Source: Candidatus Acetatifactor stercoripullorum
Lineage (GTDB): Bacteria > Bacillota > Clostridia > Lachnospirales > Lachnospiraceae
Assembly (NCBI GenBank): GCA_019114005.1
Contig: DXGH01000030.1
Coordinates: 1 to 64,000 of the forward strand
DNA length: 64,000 nt
Reading direction: 5' to 3'
Shown here: positions 1,323 to 54,533 of the stretch, piece after piece
Numbering within the stretch: position 1 is the stretch's first letter
Layout: every line of letters begins with the position of its first letter
Program-made: the position numbers and the translations under genes
The notes under the pieces: model-generated
Seen by the model: the letters and a program-made list of their open reading frames with translations, nothing else
What the model was told of the DNA's origin: nothing
Database searches by the model: none

Positions 1323-3839
1323 ATGAAAGAAAAATCCGGCGCGCCAAAGGAAATACAGATCCGCGGCGCAAGAGTACATAATCTGAAAAATATTGATGTG
1401 AATGTGCCGTTAAATCAAATTGTAGGCATTGCCGGCGTGTCAGGCTCGGGGAAATCCTCCCTGGCCCTGGGCGTGCTGTATGCCGAGGGCTCAAGACGCT
1501 ACCTGGAGGCTTTGTCCACCTACACCAGAAGGCGCATGACCCAGGCTGCAAAGGCGGATGCGGATCAGGTGCTGTACGTTCCGGCGGCGCTGGCCCTACA
1601 CCAGCGGCCCGGGGTTCCCGGTATCCGCAGTACCTTTGGCACGGGAACGGAGCTTTTAAACAATCTCAGGCTGATGTTTTCCAGGCTGTCCAGCCATCGC
1701 TGCCCGAACGGCCATTATGTGGAGCCTACGCTGGCAGTGGCGGCGGAGCAGGAGCTGACCTGCCCGGAGTGCGGCGTGGCCTTTTTTGCCCCGGGGGCGG
1801 AGGAGCTGGCCTTTAACAGCCAGGGAGCCTGCCGTACCTGTGGGGGAACGGGCATTGTGCGCACTGTGGACAGGGATTCCCTTGTGCCGGACGAATCCCT
1901 TACCATTGATGAAGGCGCCGTGGCGCCGTGGAATTCGCTCATGTGGTCGTTGATGACCGACGTCTGCAGGGAGATGGGAGTGCGCACGGACGTGCCCTTC
2001 CGGGATTTGACGGATCAGGAAAAGGATATGGTCTATAACGGGCCTGCGGAAAAGAAGCATATTCTGTATCATTCCAAAAACAGCAATCAGGCCGGAGAGC
2101 TTGATTTTACTTATTACAATGCAGTTTATACCGTGGAAAACGCCCTGGCCAAGGTCAAGGATGAAAAGGGCATGAAGCGGGTGGAAAAGTTTTTGAAGGA
2201 GGATGTGTGCCCGGACTGCGGCGGCACACGCTTATCCCAGGCGGCAAGGGCCCCAAGGCTACGGGGAATCGGACTGGATGAGGCCTGTAAAATGTCCTTA
2301 AGCCAGCTGATAAAGTGGGTGGAGGAAGTGCCTGCTTCCCTTCCGGAAGAAATGCGCCCTATGGCGAAGAGCATTTGCCAGTCCTTTTTTGTGGTGGCCA
2401 GGCGGCTTATGGAGCTTGGCCTTGGCTATCTGACCCTTGACCGGGCTGCCTCCACCTTATCCACCGGAGAACGACAGCGGATGCAGCTGGCTCGGGCAGT
2501 GAGAAACCGCACTACAGGGGTGCTGTATGTGCTGGACGAGCCCTCCATTGGACTGCATCCCTCCAATCTTGTGGGTCTGACCCGGGTCATGCAGGACCTG
2601 GTGTCGGACGGAAACTCGGTGCTTCTGGTAGACCATGATACCCAGGTTTTAAGAGAGGCCGATTGGATCATAGAGCTGGGGCCAGGGGCCGGGGCGGAGG
2701 GAGGAGAGGTGGTGGCTTCGGGCGCCATAGCCGATATTGCGGATAATGAAAAATCCAAAATCGGTCCCTTTCTCTCTGGCGCGGCTCAGGTCCAGGTCAG
2801 ACAGTGCGCAGCGGAGGATGAAATATTTGAACTGGGGAAAATTCATTTGTCCACCGGCGCCATTCACACGGTGCATCCGCTGGAGGTGGAGATTCCGAAG
2901 GGACGGCTCACTGTGGTGACGGGAGTGTCAGGTTCCGGGAAAACCACCCTGATTCTGGAAAGTCTGATTCCCGCGCTGGAGGCGGCCTGTCAGGGGAAAA
3001 AGCTTCCCGAGCATGTGCGTTTGATAGAGGCGGAGGGGATTGAGAGGGTCAAGCTCATTGACGCCGCTCCCATCGGCATAAACGTGCGCTCCACGGTGGC
3101 TACCTATGCCAATGTGCACGACGAGCTGCGGAAAATTTATGCAAAAACCCCGGATGCCAGGAATCTTGGTTTTAAGGCGGGAGATTTTTCCTATAATACG
3201 GGCAGACTGCGCTGTCCGGTGTGCGACGGAACCGGGGTGATCAGCCTGGATGTGCAGTTTCTGCCGGATGTGGAGATTCCCTGTCCGGACTGCCGGGGCT
3301 CCCGGTATGCAAGGGAGGCGGCCCGGATACGGTATCAAAAGAAATCGGGACAGGCGTATTCCCTTCCCGGGCTGATGGCTATGGATATCAACAGGGCTTT
3401 GGAAGCCTGCGGGGATTTAAAAATCGTCCGTCAGCGTCTGCAGGTGTTAAAAAGTCTGGGACTGGGGTATTTGACCTTGGGAGAGGCAACACCCAGTCTA
3501 TCCGGTGGGGAAGCCCAGCGGCTGAAGCTGGCAAGCGAGATGGGAAGAGGACAGTGGGATACGGTGTTTGTATTTGACGAGCCCACCATCGGGCTTCATC
3601 CTTTGGATGTGCAGACGCTGCTTAAGGTATTCCAGACCCTGATAGAAAACGGCGCGACGGTGATTGTAATCGAGCATGATCTGGACGTGATCCGAAATGC
3701 GGACTATATGATTGATATGGGACCGGGAGGCGGAGAAGAGGGAGGGAGAATTGTTGCAGTGGGAACTCCCTCCCGGATCGCCCAAAATCCCGACAGTATA
3801 ACGGGAAGCTATTTGACCCTTCCCAGGAGACGCTCATAA
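1323..3839 (+). CDS. UvrA-like tandem ABC ATPase (class II UvrA)
   Basis: The product is a soluble protein of about 838 residues with two ABC ATPase halves in the UvrA arrangement. Walker A motifs read GVSGSGKSS and GVSGSGKTT, signature motifs LSTGERQRMQLA and LSGGEAQRLKLA, and Walker B motifs VLDEPSIGLHP and VFDEPTIGLHP. Paired CxxC zinc motifs (CPECG, CRTCGGTG, CPVCDGTG, CPDCRGSR) fit the family. UvrA itself is about 940 residues and has a UvrB-binding domain that seems reduced here, so this resembles UvrA2/DrrC-type proteins tied to DNA-damage or drug tolerance. The ATG at 1323 follows AAAGG; an in-frame ATG at 1299 is possible. Its 3' end overlaps the convergent sdpI-like gene by 31 bp. 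The exact role is not readable. Confidence 0.85.
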   Translation: MKEKSGAPKEIQIRGARVHNLKNIDVNVPLNQIVGIAGVSGSGKSSLALGVLYAEGSRRYLEALSTYTRRRMTQAAKADADQVLYVPAALALHQRPGVPGIRSTFGTGTELLNNLRLMFSRLSSHRCPNGHYVEPTLAVAAEQELTCPECGVAFFAPGAEELAFNSQGACRTCGGTGIVRTVDRDSLVPDESLTIDEGAVAPWNSLMWSLMTDVCREMGVRTDVPFRDLTDQEKDMVYNGPAEKKHILYHSKNSNQAGELDFTYYNAVYTVENALAKVKDEKGMKRVEKFLKEDVCPDCGGTRLSQAARAPRLRGIGLDEACKMSLSQLIKWVEEVPASLPEEMRPMAKSICQSFFVVARRLMELGLGYLTLDRAASTLSTGERQRMQLARAVRNRTTGVLYVLDEPSIGLHPSNLVGLTRVMQDLVSDGNSVLLVDHDTQVLREADWIIELGPGAGAEGGEVVASGAIADIADNEKSKIGPFLSGAAQVQVRQCAAEDEIFELGKIHLSTGAIHTVHPLEVEIPKGRLTVVTGVSGSGKTTLILESLIPALEAACQGKKLPEHVRLIEAEGIERVKLIDAAPIGINVRSTVATYANVHDELRKIYAKTPDARNLGFKAGDFSYNTGRLRCPVCDGTGVISLDVQFLPDVEIPCPDCRGSRYAREAARIRYQKKSGQAYSLPGLMAMDINRALEACGDLKIVRQRLQVLKSLGLGYLTLGEATPSLSGGEAQRLKLASEMGRGQWDTVFVFDEPTIGLHPLDVQTLLKVFQTLIENGATVIVIEHDLDVIRNADYMIDMGPGGGEEGGRIVAVGTPSRIAQNPDSITGSYLTLPRRRS

Positions 3840-4864
3840 ATTTCTTTTGTGCTCTCTGCGTCCGGCCCGTTTAAGACTACTGTTTCGCCGTTTACCTTAA
3901 GTACAACGCAGGCATCGCAGTCCACAAAGGAGTACCGGGTGTAATTTCCGTACAGCTCATTGTAAAAGGAGCCCAGTGACATTTTAAAATTGCCAAAACC
4001 ATTGGTTCTTGTGCCGGACACACTGTGGGAGGGGTCTTGATCAAAGTACGTGATTTCCTCGATCTCTTCATAGCTTATGGTGAGATCCTCCCAATTTCCC
4101 GTTTCAATGGTAAAGGAGGTGTCCCCGTATGCGATTTCCATATTTCCCGTAAACAGGACGTAGAAAAGATACAGGGCCACGGCGCACAGGATTCCTATGG
4201 TCAGCGCAGCGCTTTTGGGCTTTGTCCTTCCGTTTTTTTCCACTTTCCCTTCCCTTACCTGTCTTTTGTAATAGACATAGGAGTAAATACAGGGAATCAG
4301 CACGGCTGCCACAATGAGCAGGGGGAAGACAGCGGCAGAAAGGAAAAGGGAAAAAGAGTCGGACAGGCGAATGCTGGCAAAAAAGCCGCAGACCATCATG
4401 AAAAGGCCGCAGATCACCCAGACCTTTCCGCCCAGCCTGTGGGTGGCGTTCCAGTTTTCCTCGTTTTGCAGCGTCCATTTGATACGGATGCCCATGGTGC
4501 TGTTTTGCCGGAATTTGGGAAAATAATTGCCGCATACTACAAACAGAAGGCCGAATCCGAAACACATAAGAGTCATCAGCACATAAGAGGCGTCGGTCTC
4601 TGAAAGAGCCATATAGGTGCAGGCTGTACAAAACAAAGACATCATAGGACAGAGCCAGAAAACAAGCCCCAGGGCCTTTTTGCTTTGATTCCTGTTTTTC
4701 TTATCATGAAATACAAAAAACAAACAAAGCAGATGAGCGGCCAAAAAAGAGCCGGACAATATCAGCGCTTCCCTCCAAAACAGAATGCCTGCAAAGAGAG
4801 GAAGCAGCGTCACCAAGGACGACAGTATCAGTTTTCCTTTATAATTCTTAAGCATCTCCTTCAT
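3809..4864 (-). CDS. sdpI: SdpI-family membrane protein with C-terminal soluble domain
   Basis: The product is a 351-residue membrane protein with about seven hydrophobic segments. The central motif around NYFPKFRQNSTMGIRIKWTL, followed by WNATHRLGGKVW, is characteristic of SdpI, the immunity protein against the SdpC toxin in Bacillus, and its DUF1648 relatives. After the last membrane span (about residue 240) comes a soluble tail of about 110 residues that looks like a PH-type fold (TISYEEIEEITYF), which plain SdpI lacks. The start overlaps the ArsR-type gene by 17 bp, the usual sdpR-sdpI layout in which SdpI can sequester the repressor. No sdpC toxin gene is visible in the window, so a general envelope-stress role is equally possible. 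Confidence 0.8.
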   Translation of the reverse strand: MKEMLKNYKGKLILSSLVTLLPLFAGILFWREALILSGSFLAAHLLCLFFVFHDKKNRNQSKKALGLVFWLCPMMSLFCTACTYMALSETDASYVLMTLMCFGFGLLFVVCGNYFPKFRQNSTMGIRIKWTLQNEENWNATHRLGGKVWVICGLFMMVCGFFASIRLSDSFSLFLSAAVFPLLIVAAVLIPCIYSYVYYKRQVREGKVEKNGRTKPKSAALTIGILCAVALYLFYVLFTGNMEIAYGDTSFTIETGNWEDLTISYEEIEEITYFDQDPSHSVSGTRTNGFGNFKMSLGSFYNELYGNYTRYSFVDCDACVVLKVNGETVVLNGPDAESTKEIYERLLGRVK

Positions 4865-17422: not shown

Positions 17423-17486
17423 TTTTTTAACAAGCAAGATAAGAGCATGGGAAATGCTTAAGGACAACAGATCAGGAGACAGCGCC

Positions 17487-18149
17487 ATGGAAAATCAGCA
17501 CATGCAGGAAAACCTGCAGACGGAGGAAAATCAGCAGACAGAAGAAAGCCGGCAGAGGGAAGAGGCGCAAAGCAGCCAAAGGCCCAGAGGGAAATGGTTT
17601 GGCAGAGGAATTTACGGCAGTAAGGATGTGCCAATCCGCATACTGGACGGCCTGATCGGAGTGCTGGCAGGCGCTGCCCTGATTCTGATCATCTATTTCA
17701 CCATAAACGGAGGCTTTCAAATTACCTTTGACACCCAGGGCGGCAGCCAGGTGGCGGCACAGAAGCTCAGATATGGACAGCTGGTGTCAAAACCGGAGGA
17801 GCCTTACAAGCCGGGCTATGATTTTCAGGGCTGGTATGGGCAGATAGAAGGAGAGGAAACGGCCTGGAGCTTTGAAAGTGAAAAGGTCACCGGAGACATT
17901 ACCCTTTATGCCAGATGGACCCCGGCCCAGATCACGGTAAAGTTTGATTTAAACGGCGGTGTTTCCCAGGAGGGCTCGGATGTGCTTGCACCCATGGAGG
18001 TGACCTTTGGGGAGACCTATGGGGAGCTTCCAGTTGTGTCAAAACAGGGAAGCACCTTCTTGGGCTGGGAATACGACGGGGAAATCATTACCTCTGACAC
18101 CATCGTACAGATGACAGGCGAGCATGTGCTTACAGCGGCATGGGAATAA
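17487..18149 (+). CDS. Single-span membrane protein with two B-repeats
   Basis: The product is a 220-residue protein with a Gln/Glu-rich N-terminus (about 1-40), one membrane helix (about 56-78, LDGLIGVLAGAALILIIYF) and two external InlB B-repeat-like modules, each ending in a GW/ARW-type motif (GYDFQGWYG...LYARW and STFLGWEYDG...LTAAW). Such repeats are listerial/bacterial surface modules of grasp-like fold. There is no signal cleavage site, so it stays anchored by the helix. The start at 17487 follows CAGGAGA; an upstream ATG at 17454 lacks a site. It follows mglC closely and may be co-transcribed, but I can assign no function. Confidence 0.75.
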   Translation: MENQHMQENLQTEENQQTEESRQREEAQSSQRPRGKWFGRGIYGSKDVPIRILDGLIGVLAGAALILIIYFTINGGFQITFDTQGGSQVAAQKLRYGQLVSKPEEPYKPGYDFQGWYGQIEGEETAWSFESEKVTGDITLYARWTPAQITVKFDLNGGVSQEGSDVLAPMEVTFGETYGELPVVSKQGSTFLGWEYDGEIITSDTIVQMTGEHVLTAAWE

Positions 18150-18787: not shown

Positions 18788-19062
18788 TGAGAAAGCAGCA
18801 AAAGTGCTACTCGATAACACAAAAAAAATCATAAATGAAAACAAAAAAAATCAATAAATATTATAGCTGTCAAAAAGAAATATATTAAATATAAAAGAAA
18901 GAGAATATCATAATTTTTCAAAAAATATACTTGTTTTAAAAAGAAGAATATTAAAATAAATCAATAAATAAATTAAACTCAATACTTGTTGGCAGAATAA
19001 GATTGTGCTACCATGGAACAATCTGAAAAGGAGAACTTGAGTAAAGGAAAGAGGATATATCC
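18788..19062 (+). promoter_or_regulatory. AT-rich leader of leuA-araC with direct repeats
   Basis: This 275-base non-coding, very AT-rich region holds two sets of exact direct repeats. AAATCAATAAATA occurs at 18848-18860 and 18958-18970 (110 bp apart). ATACTTGTT occurs at 18927-18935 and 18982-18990 (55 bp apart). The spacings are multiples of each other, as expected for paired half-sites of a dimeric AraC-type protein. I see no T-box motif. AAAGGAG and GGAAAGAGG lie before the start at 19063. Promoter elements are not clear-cut. Confidence 0.5.
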
Positions 19063-21069
19063 ATGGGAAAAACAACAGTAAGTGAAAAATACAAGAAATC
19101 TTATTTTATGCCCCCGGAGGCGACCTATGACTGGGTGAAAAAGGACAGCATTGAGAAAGCCCCCATTTGGTGCAGCGTAGACTTAAGAGACGGCAATCAG
19201 GCGCTGGTGGAGCCCATGAGTCTGGAGCAGAAGCTGGAATTCTTTAAACTGCTGGTAAAGCTGGGTTTCAAGGAGATAGAGGTGGGCTTTCCGGCGTCCT
19301 CGGATACGGAATATAACTTTATCCGGGCGCTGATTGAGCGGGATATGATTCCCGAAGATGTGACCATACAGGTGCTCACTCAGGCCAGAGAGCATATTAT
19401 CCGCAAGACCTTTGAGGCGGTAAAGGGCGCGCCCCATGCGGTGGTGCATTTATACAATTCCACCTCCGTAGAGCAAAGGGAGCAGGTATTTCATAAGGAT
19501 AAGGAAGCGGTGAAAAAGCTGGCGGTGGACGGCGCGGTAATGTTAAAAAAGCTGGCCCAGGAGACGGAGGGGAATTTTACCTTTGAGTACAGCCCGGAAA
19601 GCTTTTCCCAGACGGAGGTGGACTATGCCCTGGAGGTCTGCAACGCGGTGCTGGATGTGTGGCAGCCCGGGGAAAACCAGAAGGCCATCATCAATCTGCC
19701 CACCACGGTACAGGTTGCCATGCCCCATGTGTTTGCCTGTCAGGTGGAGTACATGCACAAGCACTTAAAATACAGGGAAAATGTGGTGCTTAGCGTACAT
19801 CCCCACAATGACAGGGGCTGCGGCATCAGCGATGCGGAATTCGGCATTCTGGCCGGAGCGGACCGGGTGGAGGGTACTCTGTTTGGCAATGGAGAGCGGA
19901 CCGGAAATGTGGACATTGTCACGCTGGCGTTAAATATGCTGTGCCACGGCGTGGAAAGCGGGCTTGATTTCTCCCGGATTATGGAGGTCAGGGAGGCTTA
20001 TGAGAAATTTACAGGCATGAGAGTGCATGAGAGAACCCCTTATGCAGGGGATCTGGTGTTTACCGCCTTTTCCGGCTCCCATCAAGATGCCATCAGCAAG
20101 GGCATGGCATGGCTTAAGGCGGGAAAGAGCGGAAAGCGCTGGGATGTTCCTTATCTGCCCATCGACCCCTCTGACGTGGGAAGAGAATATGAATCCGATG
20201 TAATCCGTATCAACAGTGTCTCGGGAAAGGGAGGCGTGGCCTTTGTGCTGAAGCAGCAGTTTGGCTTCTCCCTTCCGGCGGAAATGAAGGAAGAGGTGGG
20301 CTACCTGATAAAGGGTGTGTCCGACAAGCGGCATCAGGAGCTGCGCCCGGGGGAAATCTATACGATTTTCGAGGAAAATTATATCACGCCCCGAATGGTC
20401 TTTGATGTGCCGGAGTGCCATTTCAAGCAAAAGGACGGCATCATTGCGGAGGTGACCATAGCCCAGAAGGGCGAAAGCAGAGTGGTTACTGCCGCAGGAA
20501 ACGGCCGGCTGGATGCGGTAAGCAATGCGGTGAAGCTCTTTTTCGGCATGGATTACGAGCTTTCCGTTTATGAGGAGCATGCCGTTTCCACGGGCTCCAG
20601 TGCAAAGGCTGCAGCCTATGTAGGCATTGTTCATGATGGAAAGTACGACTGGGGCGTAGGCTTGGACGAAGATATCATCAAGGCTTCCATAGCGGCGTTA
20701 GTGTCTGCGGCCAATAAGCTGGCTGCGGCACAGCACATCCGCGAAGGAAGAGAAGAGAGAATTGTGGAAATTATGGGCTTTATAAAACAGCATTACACGG
20801 ATGTGACCCTGGAGGGCCTTGCAAAACAATTTCACCTTTCCAGCCCCTATATCTCCAAATATATCAAGGAGAAATCAGGCATGACCTTTCAGGAGGCGGT
20901 AAAGGAGGAGCGGCTGAAAAAGGCAAAAGCCATGCTCAGGGAAACAGCCCAGACTGTGGAGACCATTGCGGCAAATGTGGGATATGAGAACGTGGAGCAT
21001 TTCAACCGCCTGTTTAAAAAGACCTATCATGTGACGCCTGTGCAGTACCGCAGGCAGGCTGTAAAATAG
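19063..21069 (+). CDS. leuA: 2-isopropylmalate synthase fused to AraC-type DNA-binding domain
   Basis: The product is 668 residues in one uninterrupted frame. The first 555 match the alpha-isopropylmalate synthase form that begins YFMPPEATYDWV; it condenses acetyl-CoA with 2-oxoisovalerate in leucine synthesis. The metal/active-site motifs are present: DLRDGNQAL (about 40-48), HPHND with H246 and H248, and GTLFGNGERTGN. The leucine-binding dimerisation domain spans about 430-555. The protein does not stop there: after a short charged linker (EGREERIVEIMGF) residues about 580-665 form a double AraC helix-turn-helix (TLEGLAKQFHLSSPYISKYI; VETIAANVGYENVEHFNRLF; HVTPVQYRR). Ordinary LeuA ends before this. 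No leuB, leuC or leuD is adjacent. I infer a leucine-responsive regulator-enzyme. Confidence 0.9.
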   Translation: MGKTTVSEKYKKSYFMPPEATYDWVKKDSIEKAPIWCSVDLRDGNQALVEPMSLEQKLEFFKLLVKLGFKEIEVGFPASSDTEYNFIRALIERDMIPEDVTIQVLTQAREHIIRKTFEAVKGAPHAVVHLYNSTSVEQREQVFHKDKEAVKKLAVDGAVMLKKLAQETEGNFTFEYSPESFSQTEVDYALEVCNAVLDVWQPGENQKAIINLPTTVQVAMPHVFACQVEYMHKHLKYRENVVLSVHPHNDRGCGISDAEFGILAGADRVEGTLFGNGERTGNVDIVTLALNMLCHGVESGLDFSRIMEVREAYEKFTGMRVHERTPYAGDLVFTAFSGSHQDAISKGMAWLKAGKSGKRWDVPYLPIDPSDVGREYESDVIRINSVSGKGGVAFVLKQQFGFSLPAEMKEEVGYLIKGVSDKRHQELRPGEIYTIFEENYITPRMVFDVPECHFKQKDGIIAEVTIAQKGESRVVTAAGNGRLDAVSNAVKLFFGMDYELSVYEEHAVSTGSSAKAAAYVGIVHDGKYDWGVGLDEDIIKASIAALVSAANKLAAAQHIREGREERIVEIMGFIKQHYTDVTLEGLAKQFHLSSPYISKYIKEKSGMTFQEAVKEERLKKAKAMLRETAQTVETIAANVGYENVEHFNRLFKKTYHVTPVQYRRQAVK

Positions 21070-21078
21070 CTGAAAAAT

Positions 21079-21115
21079 AAGAGAAGCTGCGCAAAAATGC
21101 GCCGCTTCTCTTTTC
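21079..21115. terminator. Bidirectional terminator
   Basis: AAGAGAAGC pairs with GCTTCTCTT, with inner CGC/GCG pairs. T-rich sequence follows on the plus strand and an A run precedes it, so it can serve both leuA and the convergent lipoprotein gene. Confidence 0.8.
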
Positions 21116-21117
21116 TC

Positions 21118-21681
21118 TTATTTTGTGACTGGATAAACGGACAGAAGAATATACTTGAAAGAGCCGTCCTGCTTGAAATCAGTAAGGACGAGCGCCGTGT
21201 GGATGCCCTCTGTGCGCTCCCAGAGATAAGATTCCCCCTGGGTGGTAAAGCCAAGCTCCTCGATCTGGCTCTCCCGGAAAAAAATCTCCGCTTCGCCGTA
21301 GAGGGAAGTGAGCTCTTGGGTAAGAGCCTCCCAGACGGCCTCCTGTTCATCCTCCTCGGGGAAAATGTGGAAGGAGACGCTGCTTAAGGTCTCATTTTCA
21401 AAGTCGCAAAGCAGCCGGGCCTGGGCGCCCTCCCACTCAAAGGCTTCCGAAGCCATATAGGCCTGATGGCTGCTGTTTGCAGATAAGAATTCATCCAGTG
21501 TGACCCCGAGGGTCTCTTCTATGTCCTCCTTGGATGAGCCCCACTGAACTGAGGAAAACTGGAAGTCCCCCGATGAATTCTGCAGCTCTGTCAGGGAAAT
21601 TTCCCGTTCCCTTTGGCCGCAGCCTGCAAAAACAAGGCACAGACTGCAGACGGCCATGCAATTCACCCATTTGTTGTTCAT
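21118..21681 (-). CDS. Putative lipoprotein, unknown function
   Basis: The product is a 187-residue secreted lipoprotein. The signal peptide (MNNKWVNCMAVCSLCLVF) ends in lipobox FAGC. The mature part is acidic and includes WGSSKEDIEETLG, a short motif also seen in small secreted proteins that resemble SmpA/BamE-like or DUF-type folds, but I cannot name a family. I chose the start at 21681 because a hydrophobic signal begins there and GGGGGC-type sequence lies upstream; an in-frame ATG at 21714 is less likely. It ends at the shared terminator with leuA. Confidence 0.65.
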   Translation of the reverse strand: MNNKWVNCMAVCSLCLVFAGCGQREREISLTELQNSSGDFQFSSVQWGSSKEDIEETLGVTLDEFLSANSSHQAYMASEAFEWEGAQARLLCDFENETLSSVSFHIFPEEDEQEAVWEALTQELTSLYGEAEIFFRESQIEELGFTTQGESYLWERTEGIHTALVLTDFKQDGSFKYILLSVYPVTK

Positions 21682-54364: not shown

Positions 54365-54446
54365 GGATGGATTCCCGAGTGGCCAAAGGGGACAGACTGT
54401 AAATCTGCTGCAAATTGCTTCGGTGGTTCGAATCCACCTCCATCCA
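54365..54446 (+). tRNA. tRNA-Tyr (GUA)
   Basis: The gene is 82 bases long with a long variable arm (class II). The acceptor stem GGATGGA / TCCATCC is perfect. The anticodon stem CAGA/TCTG encloses loop CTGTAAA with anticodon GTA. The T arm has GGTTCGAATCC. CCA is not encoded beyond the discriminator A. Confidence 0.95.
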
Positions 54447-54449
54447 TTT

Positions 54450-54533
54450 GCTGGTGTGGCGGAATAGGCAGACGCAAGGGACTTAAAATCCCTCGGGGGC
54501 GACCTCGTACCGGTTCAAGTCCGGTTACCAGCA
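54450..54533 (+). tRNA. tRNA-Leu (UAA)
   Basis: The gene is 84 bases long with a long variable arm. The acceptor stem GCTGGTG pairs with TACCAGC (one G-U). The anticodon stem AGGGA/TCCCT encloses CTTAAAA with anticodon TAA. The T arm contains GGTTCAAGTCC. It follows tRNA-Tyr by three bases and shares its transcript. Confidence 0.95.

Follow-up and report, generated by a model that had tools for sequence, protein, structure and literature searches.

Few trigger enzymes are known to us. The term covers enzymes with a DNA-binding domain of their own, for which the available part of one source names PutA, BirA, NadR, and PepA (PMC8249747), while the available part of another describes AraC-type helix-turn-helix (HTH) domains with many partner domains (PMC5882156). 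The word isopropylmalate was absent from the main text of the latter. The 2-isopropylmalate synthase (LeuA) of M. tuberculosis is described in the accessible part of PMC1919377 as a dimer that binds leucine at its C-terminal domain. In a window of 64,000 nucleotides from Candidatus Acetatifactor stercoripullorum (Lachnospiraceae; contig DXGH01000030.1), which is the whole stretch of DNA analyzed here, one gene joins such an enzyme to an AraC-type HTH domain (Table 1). We refer to the gene as leuA-araC and to its product as LeuA-AraC.

The closest solved chains to LeuA-AraC were those of M. tuberculosis LeuA (PDB 1sr9/3fig), with which the barrel, the linker domain, and the leucine domain aligned over residues 29–520 and 525–554, including the GNGRLDA and YEEHA stretches of the window protein. 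None of the LeuA chains among the PDB hits carried an HTH, and the AraC-type HTH is what distinguishes LeuA-AraC from them. The protein resembles the AraC/XylS regulators in having HTH_18 and HTH_AraC matches above cut-off and putative tandem half-sites near the −35 element, but it lacks a cupin or sugar-binding partner, whose place is taken by a whole biosynthetic enzyme. Like the described trigger enzymes, it is predicted to regulate the pathway in which it works, beginning with its own gene. It nevertheless differs from PutA, BirA, NadR, and PepA in both the enzyme and the DNA-binding domain, as well as in acting at the committed step of an amino-acid pathway, one subject to inhibition by leucine. 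Moreover, it is probably an activator, whereas PutA is described as a repressor in the available part of PMC8249747.

No paper on LeuA-AraC was found in an open-access library, whose scope takes in few subscription papers and no bioRxiv preprints, and the architecture may already be listed in web domain databases. One transcription factor of 669 residues reportedly is an alcohol regulator and was taken as unrelated. That length is given in the accessible part of PMC13227213.

Table 1. Features of the leuA-araC locus (positions in the window; residues of LeuA-AraC)
Feature	Position	Strand	Details and basis
Operator O1	18950..18990	+	Motif from upstream DNA of fused genes
O1 half-site A	18951–18964	+	TTAAAATAAATCAA
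O1 half-site B	18973–18987	+	TTAAACTCAATACTT
Predicted promoter	18986..19014	+	−35 TTGTTG (18986–18991), extended −10 TGCTACCAT (19006–19014); read from sequence
Putative ribosome-binding site	19045..19054	+	AGGAAAGAGG; read from sequence
leuA-araC fusion gene	19063..21069	+	ATG start, 668 aa, uninterrupted
HMGL-like catalytic barrel	19162..19995	+	Residues 34–311; Pfam
IPMS_D2 domain	20050..20253	+	Residues 330–397; Pfam
LeuA_dimer regulatory (leucine) domain	20344..20721	+	Residues 428–553; Pfam
Variable junction	20722..20811	+	Residues 554–583, first HTH-side helix from 565; entropy, model helices
AraC-type double HTH (HTH_18)	20818..21057	+	Residues 586–665; Pfam, conservation, model
Second helices of the HTHs	within 20818..21057	+	Residues near 594–605 and 644–655
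Probable intrinsic terminator	21080..21119	+	Inner stem 21089–21102 from generic scan, longer stem read by eye

The earlier note had described a complete 2-isopropylmalate synthase followed by an AraC-type HTH in one 668-codon frame, and reading of the ORF together with Pfam confirmed this. All Pfam domains exceeded their curated cut-offs, with an E value of 3.4e-22 for HTH_18 and an HTH_AraC match at residues 628–664. The NCBIfam model NF002991 (2-isopropylmalate synthase) scored 787 bits against a cut-off of 455, while the narrower equivalog TIGR00970 remained below its cut-off (646.5 vs. 697.4). The order HMGL-like, IPMS_D2, and LeuA_dimer, together with a subfamily model above cut-off, identifies the enzyme part as a type 2 LeuA, and the double HTH of about 100 residues is that of the AraC/XylS family. 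The sequences DLRDGNQAL, HPHND, and GNGERTGN, which we take to be the catalytic motifs of LeuA, varied little or not at all among 52 fused proteins, and LeuA-AraC is presumably an active enzyme.

An AlphaFold model with the 52 fused proteins as input had a mean pLDDT of 82.9 and a pTM of 0.61, so that the relative placement of the domains is uncertain. In this model, helix 538–556 closes the leucine domain and is followed, after a short gap, by seven HTH helices spanning 565 to 667, the helix 565–576 among them, with block means of 82–91 and 77 in the last block; the segments below 50 were 325–338 and 376–390. Among 128 fused proteins, the junction had a mean column entropy of 1.85, compared with 1.05–1.12 for the HTH, 0.56 for the barrel, and 1.18 for the leucine domain. 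Residues S598, F609, G640, Y641, F647, and F651 were invariant in this set and Y596, E645, H646, and R649 varied in at most two proteins. These residues sit on the DNA side, within or close to the second helix of each HTH, and part of their conservation is general to AraC-type HTHs. As a whole, the HTH was less conserved than the enzyme part, with mean identities to the window protein of 0.64 and 0.74, respectively.

The gene stands alone; its upstream neighbor is a cytidylate-kinase-like gene, and the gene that follows it lies on the reverse strand and had no Pfam match. The terminator listed in Table 1 derives in part from a generic scan in which the number of such sites was not above that in shuffled sequence. 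Positions 17454–18149, two genes upstream of leuA-araC, code for a product carrying Listeria-Bacteroides (InlB B-type) repeats. Two adjacent tRNA genes at 54365–54533 were the sole Rfam matches in the whole window.

A search for homologs with a C-terminal HTH, as proposed in the earlier note, showed that the fusion is common in Lachnospiraceae and present in two other families. Alignments that reached or passed residue 664 of the query were obtained in at least 89 of the 397 sampled family genomes, by a hand count of the matches listed, with scores down to about 797 bits; some of these genomes are single-contig assemblies. Reading of 60 loci found it in frame in 43. When the last 241 residues were used as the query against the class, 13 of 391 genomes were fused (the window's own included), three of which belong to the two other families. 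The statement of the earlier note that known LeuA proteins do not extend past the leucine domain thus fails in Lachnospiraceae. The note had also named a sequencing error near the junction, joining two adjacent genes, as what would overturn its reading. Nothing in favor of a sequencing or assembly error of this kind was found; the host genome is an assembly of 73 contigs. Since the same in-frame architecture recurs across genomes, including single-contig assemblies and members of other families, the junction is not such an error, and we give that explanation next to no weight.

A second LeuA match at E ≤ 1e-60 was lacking in 80 of the 89 fused genomes and present in nine, the window's own among them, a count in which at most three candidates were scored per genome and which a distant type-1 LeuA would escape. 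The window's own genome encodes a second, unfused LeuA of 559 aa with 51% identity to the fusion (L197, identical with L002; G000:C48:22000–29000, gene at 2319–3995, minus strand), which adjoins a gene that looks glmM-like by eye. The operator described below was absent at this second gene.

Expectation maximization over 67 non-redundant regions upstream of fused genes yielded one strong motif. In its 44-column form, it exceeded the 99% shuffle quantile at 63 of 73 fused loci and at none of the 16 loci then classed as unfused. The consensus consists of half-sites of about TTAAAATAaATCAA and TTAAAttTrTCAcT, arranged as direct repeats 22–23 bp apart, with matrix self-matches of 0.59 at shift 22 and 0.35 at shift 23. 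The inverted self-matches were equally strong (up to 0.67), and a mixed arrangement of half-sites is therefore possible. For genome-wide searches, a sequence-only model, R1, was built from 79 sites. In the window's genome, O1 was its best match, although a weak one (E 0.0196).

The operator stands at a nearly fixed distance from the promoter. The best −10 element began 58–61 nt from the start of the operator in 109 of 115 loci, and the −10 of the window lies at 59 nt; given this distance and a normal spacer, the −35 is placed where the downstream half-site ends. A TG preceded the −10 in 110 of the 115 loci, a figure biased upwards because the −10 finder rewards TG. The predicted promoter of the window was missed by a generic promoter scan since both its −35 and its −10 are poor matches to consensus, and transcription of leuA-araC is predicted to start near 19021. 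AraC-family proteins usually activate from a site next to the −35, and tandem direct half-sites in this position are typical of AraC-type activators. The position of the operator would thus suit the activation of a promoter whose −35 is poor.

A second operator-like site, O2, was found past the promoter in 34 of the 115 loci above the 99% shuffle quantile, in most of the leading loci 68–77 nt after O1, or roughly seven helical turns. Examples are the leaders of L019, L021, L026, L035, and their relatives, where looping is possible. The same scan found no O2 in the leader of the window. These sites bear on the possibility that LeuA-AraC is an autorepressor, in which the leucine-bound enzyme on the operator, or a loop between O1 and O2, would block RNA polymerase. 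The downstream half-site does reach the −35, and the phased O2 sites would serve such a loop, but activation better fits the constant spacing of the −10 and the poorly matching −35 of the window, and O2 occurs in a minority of loci that does not include the window. We consider autorepression unlikely and infer that the protein probably activates its own promoter.

The operator accompanied the HTH domain with few exceptions. The LeuA motif was present in 190 of 197 records, and the removal of six duplicates left 128 fused genes, one truncated where its contig stops, and 55 apparently unfused leuA genes. Three of the 55 (L087, L101, and L110) carry an HTH in another frame beside LeuA, so that 52 truly lack it. 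A 41-column operator matrix, built from 85 of the tested sites, was applied with a threshold of 10. Upstream DNA was available for 127 fused genes, and at this threshold the operator was detected before 119 of them, as opposed to none of the 52 HTH-less genes (best score 8.8). All three frame-split loci had the operator, with scores of 35.4, 37.6, and 22.1. In L101 and L110, LeuA and the HTH lie back to back in different frames, the latter just after the LeuA stop, with the operator retained; this may reflect a sequencing error, a frameshift, or a real split gene. Among the fused genes that were missed, L143 has a strong operator further upstream (42.9), L061, L065, L071, and L144 have weak sites (4.1–9.5), and reinspection of the upstream DNA revealed no operator for L165, L174, and L192.

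Simpler origins of the signal were rejected. The two highest HTH-less scores, L126 (8.8) and L124 (7.2), were under the threshold and poor by eye, and were taken as chance. AT-richness was ruled out by dinucleotide-model shuffles, the best of 402 of which reached 11.25. In an out-of-sample check, all seven later fused genes had the operator, three of them from other families, and for each of the seven none of 500 shuffles scored as well. R1 gave a match at E ≤ 1 in all 18 fused genomes first searched, with the own leuA promoter as the best match in 17 (the exception being G135). In 74 further fusion genomes (71 intact, one contig-cut, and two frame-split), 62 had a match at E ≤ 0.01, in 60 of them at leuA itself according to the coordinates read, as opposed to one of 74 HTH-less control genomes, whose borderline match (E 0.0095) lies before a response-regulator-like gene; both searches used stricter filters, under which weak matches are lost. 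Absence of the fusion from the controls was judged from fetched loci for 37 and from a C-terminal search for the other 37, in which LeuA matches reached at most 145 of the 241 C-terminal residues and 12 genomes gave no match, while two fused genomes run as controls reached 237 and 241 residues. A general feature of leuA promoters was ruled out by the 52 HTH-less genes together with the 74 control genomes.

The association was evaluated with tree-based pairs, which respect kinship. A quick tree of the LeuA part, from which L087 was excluded, comprised 183 rows, 131 of them carrying the HTH and 52 lacking it, and on this tree the HTH label changes at least eight times, six of these changes being forced by well-supported branches. 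Eight HTH-less rows (L073, L098, L099, L102, L103, L107, L117, and L122) fall inside a mostly fused clade, and neither an operator nor an HTH remnant was found at these loci. Among the 182 rows with upstream DNA, the operator was present in 122 of the 130 that carry the HTH, as opposed to none of the 52 that lack it. In 158 of 200 random pairings, HTH and operator agreed in all six independent pairs on supported branches; in the remaining 42, five pairs were concordant, and no pair was discordant in any (median p =.031). The outcome was the same with a threshold of 7 and L126 and L124 set by hand to lacking the operator as with the 41-column matrix at a threshold of 10 without hand-setting. 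Along this quick tree, the changes may be read as gains or as losses of the HTH and operator.

The dozens of AraC-type HTHs encoded in the genome raise the possibility that a separate paralog reads the operator and that the HTH of LeuA has another role. It is hard to reconcile with an operator and a LeuA HTH that are present and missing together, or with HTH-less genomes that are likewise rich in AraC paralogs, and we regard it as very improbable. Because the operator matches the HTH and was not found where the HTH is missing, control of its own gene by the enzyme is very probable. In the sequence comparisons, LeuA-AraC thus appears, with good though not complete confidence, as a 2-isopropylmalate synthase that is also a transcription regulator of its own gene, in other words a trigger enzyme.

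T-box control of leuA is comparable in that it acts on the same gene in the same bacterial family as the operator. A T-box string preceded 42 of the 52 HTH-less leuA genes but only 18 of the 127 fused ones. In 14 fused loci, string and operator occurred together, the operator being further upstream. The string is a proxy that missed an Rfam T-box at L130 and was unconfirmed by Rfam at L098; Rfam confirmed a T-box in 11 of 20 submitted loci, including six of the seven coexisting loci tested, with L011 unconfirmed. No T-box leader was detected before leuA-araC in the Rfam scan of the whole window.

Operator-like sites were also found at other genes. In 92 fusion-carrying genomes, R1 gave 17 non-leuA matches at E ≤ 0.01, not counting two that overlap or adjoin leuA sites. 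Six of the 17 lie directly before, and face, branched-chain genes, namely ilvBN (G191), leuCD (G207), leuB-ilvD (G341), ilvNC (G042), livKH-like (G137), and leuCDB (G216). The first genes ilvB, leuC, leuB, and ilvN scored above their NCBIfam cut-offs. The liv substrate-binding protein fell short of its cut-off (147.9 vs. 477), although a Pfam match to Peripla_BP_6 supports its assignment. The genes further downstream in these sets were identified by eye. Another match faces away from a further liv-like gene. Other matches (L229, L231, L234, L237, and L277) precede genes for a PanS-like BASS transporter (below cut-off), a PorC/KorC-family protein, a trpB-like protein (named by eye; PALP in Pfam), an NSS-type transporter (above cut-off), and an SDR protein. 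Matches in G345, G047, and G042:C92 and those at nitroreductase and MarR genes had no sensible gene or promoter and were scored as misses, and a match at leuB of G156 (L233, E 0.0104), which is oriented away from that gene, was excluded.

Matrix scans added ilvBN in G232 as well as leuB in two genomes, G017 and G068, and marginally in G282. At 14 of 18 non-leuA promoters (14 of the 17 R1 matches plus four from the scans), the −10 began 58–61 nt from the site, a range taken from the leuA sites, as it does at leuA. The extra sites were patchy, occurring at leuC in two of 30 genomes, at leuB in three clear cases of 28 (L355 and L376 being left out for want of an anchor), and at the best-matching ilvB in two clear cases of 30. 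In the window's genome, promoter scans found no operator at leuC, leuB, or the best-matching ilvB, and the whole-genome R1 search found no convincing site at its second ilvB-like gene. A divergent gene for a LysR-type regulator stands beside leuCD in this genome (L322:2873–3850) and is a candidate for a separate regulator of the later leucine genes.

The earlier note had proposed a feedback loop of one protein on its own or other leucine genes. The first part gained strong comparative support from a conserved operator that tracks the HTH and lies within 18788–19062, the region singled out in the note for a binding test; the second applies to other lineages, since in the window's genome only the own promoter is convincing. 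Some of the extra sites lie near ketoisovalerate genes, such as ilvBN, the PanS-like gene (below cut-off), and the PorC/KorC-family gene, and trigger enzymes such as PutA answer to their substrate (available part of PMC8249747). The signal could accordingly be 2-ketoisovalerate, acetyl-CoA, or the catalytic state instead of leucine. The HTH, however, directly follows the leucine domain and not the catalytic one, and we treat a substrate signal as a tentative alternative. Because the leucine domain adjoins the HTH, leucine probably controls both outputs; judged from the domain order, its control of DNA binding would pass through the shared regulatory domain.

In the preferred reading, the LeuA dimer would place two AraC-type DNA-binding domains on the tandem operator, as suits two HTHs and two half-sites, with the downstream half-site ending at the −35 of leuA, the usual activating position of the AraC family. 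The leucine-free enzyme would, most likely, activate its own transcription, and leucine bound by the regulatory domain would both inhibit catalysis and weaken activation. The operator would also have spread to ilv, leu, and liv-like promoters in some lineages. What counts against this explanation is that three fused genes are siteless, that the site of the window is weak, and that the other leucine genes of its genome have none, as well as the lower conservation of the HTH relative to the enzyme, the O2 sites in about a third of the loci (34/115), and the unfused LeuA in the genome. At about even confidence, we propose a fuller account, in which leucine stops catalysis and leuA transcription through one allosteric domain, the protein has become a regulator of the ilv/leu/liv pathway in several lineages, one group loops phased operators, and the system has largely replaced the T-box and has been lost several times together with its operator.

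The finding matters for annotation: going by the best family model, the protein would be labeled simply as 2-isopropylmalate synthase. The loci form a natural experiment in which the HTH is present, absent, or frame-split, each with or without the operator, and the operator and promoter architecture is on offer for leucine or ketoisovalerate sensing in anaerobes. LeuA-AraC is widespread in Lachnospiraceae, acts at the committed step of a core pathway, which leucine inhibits, and raises the testable question of whether one allosteric site can govern enzyme activity and gene expression alike.
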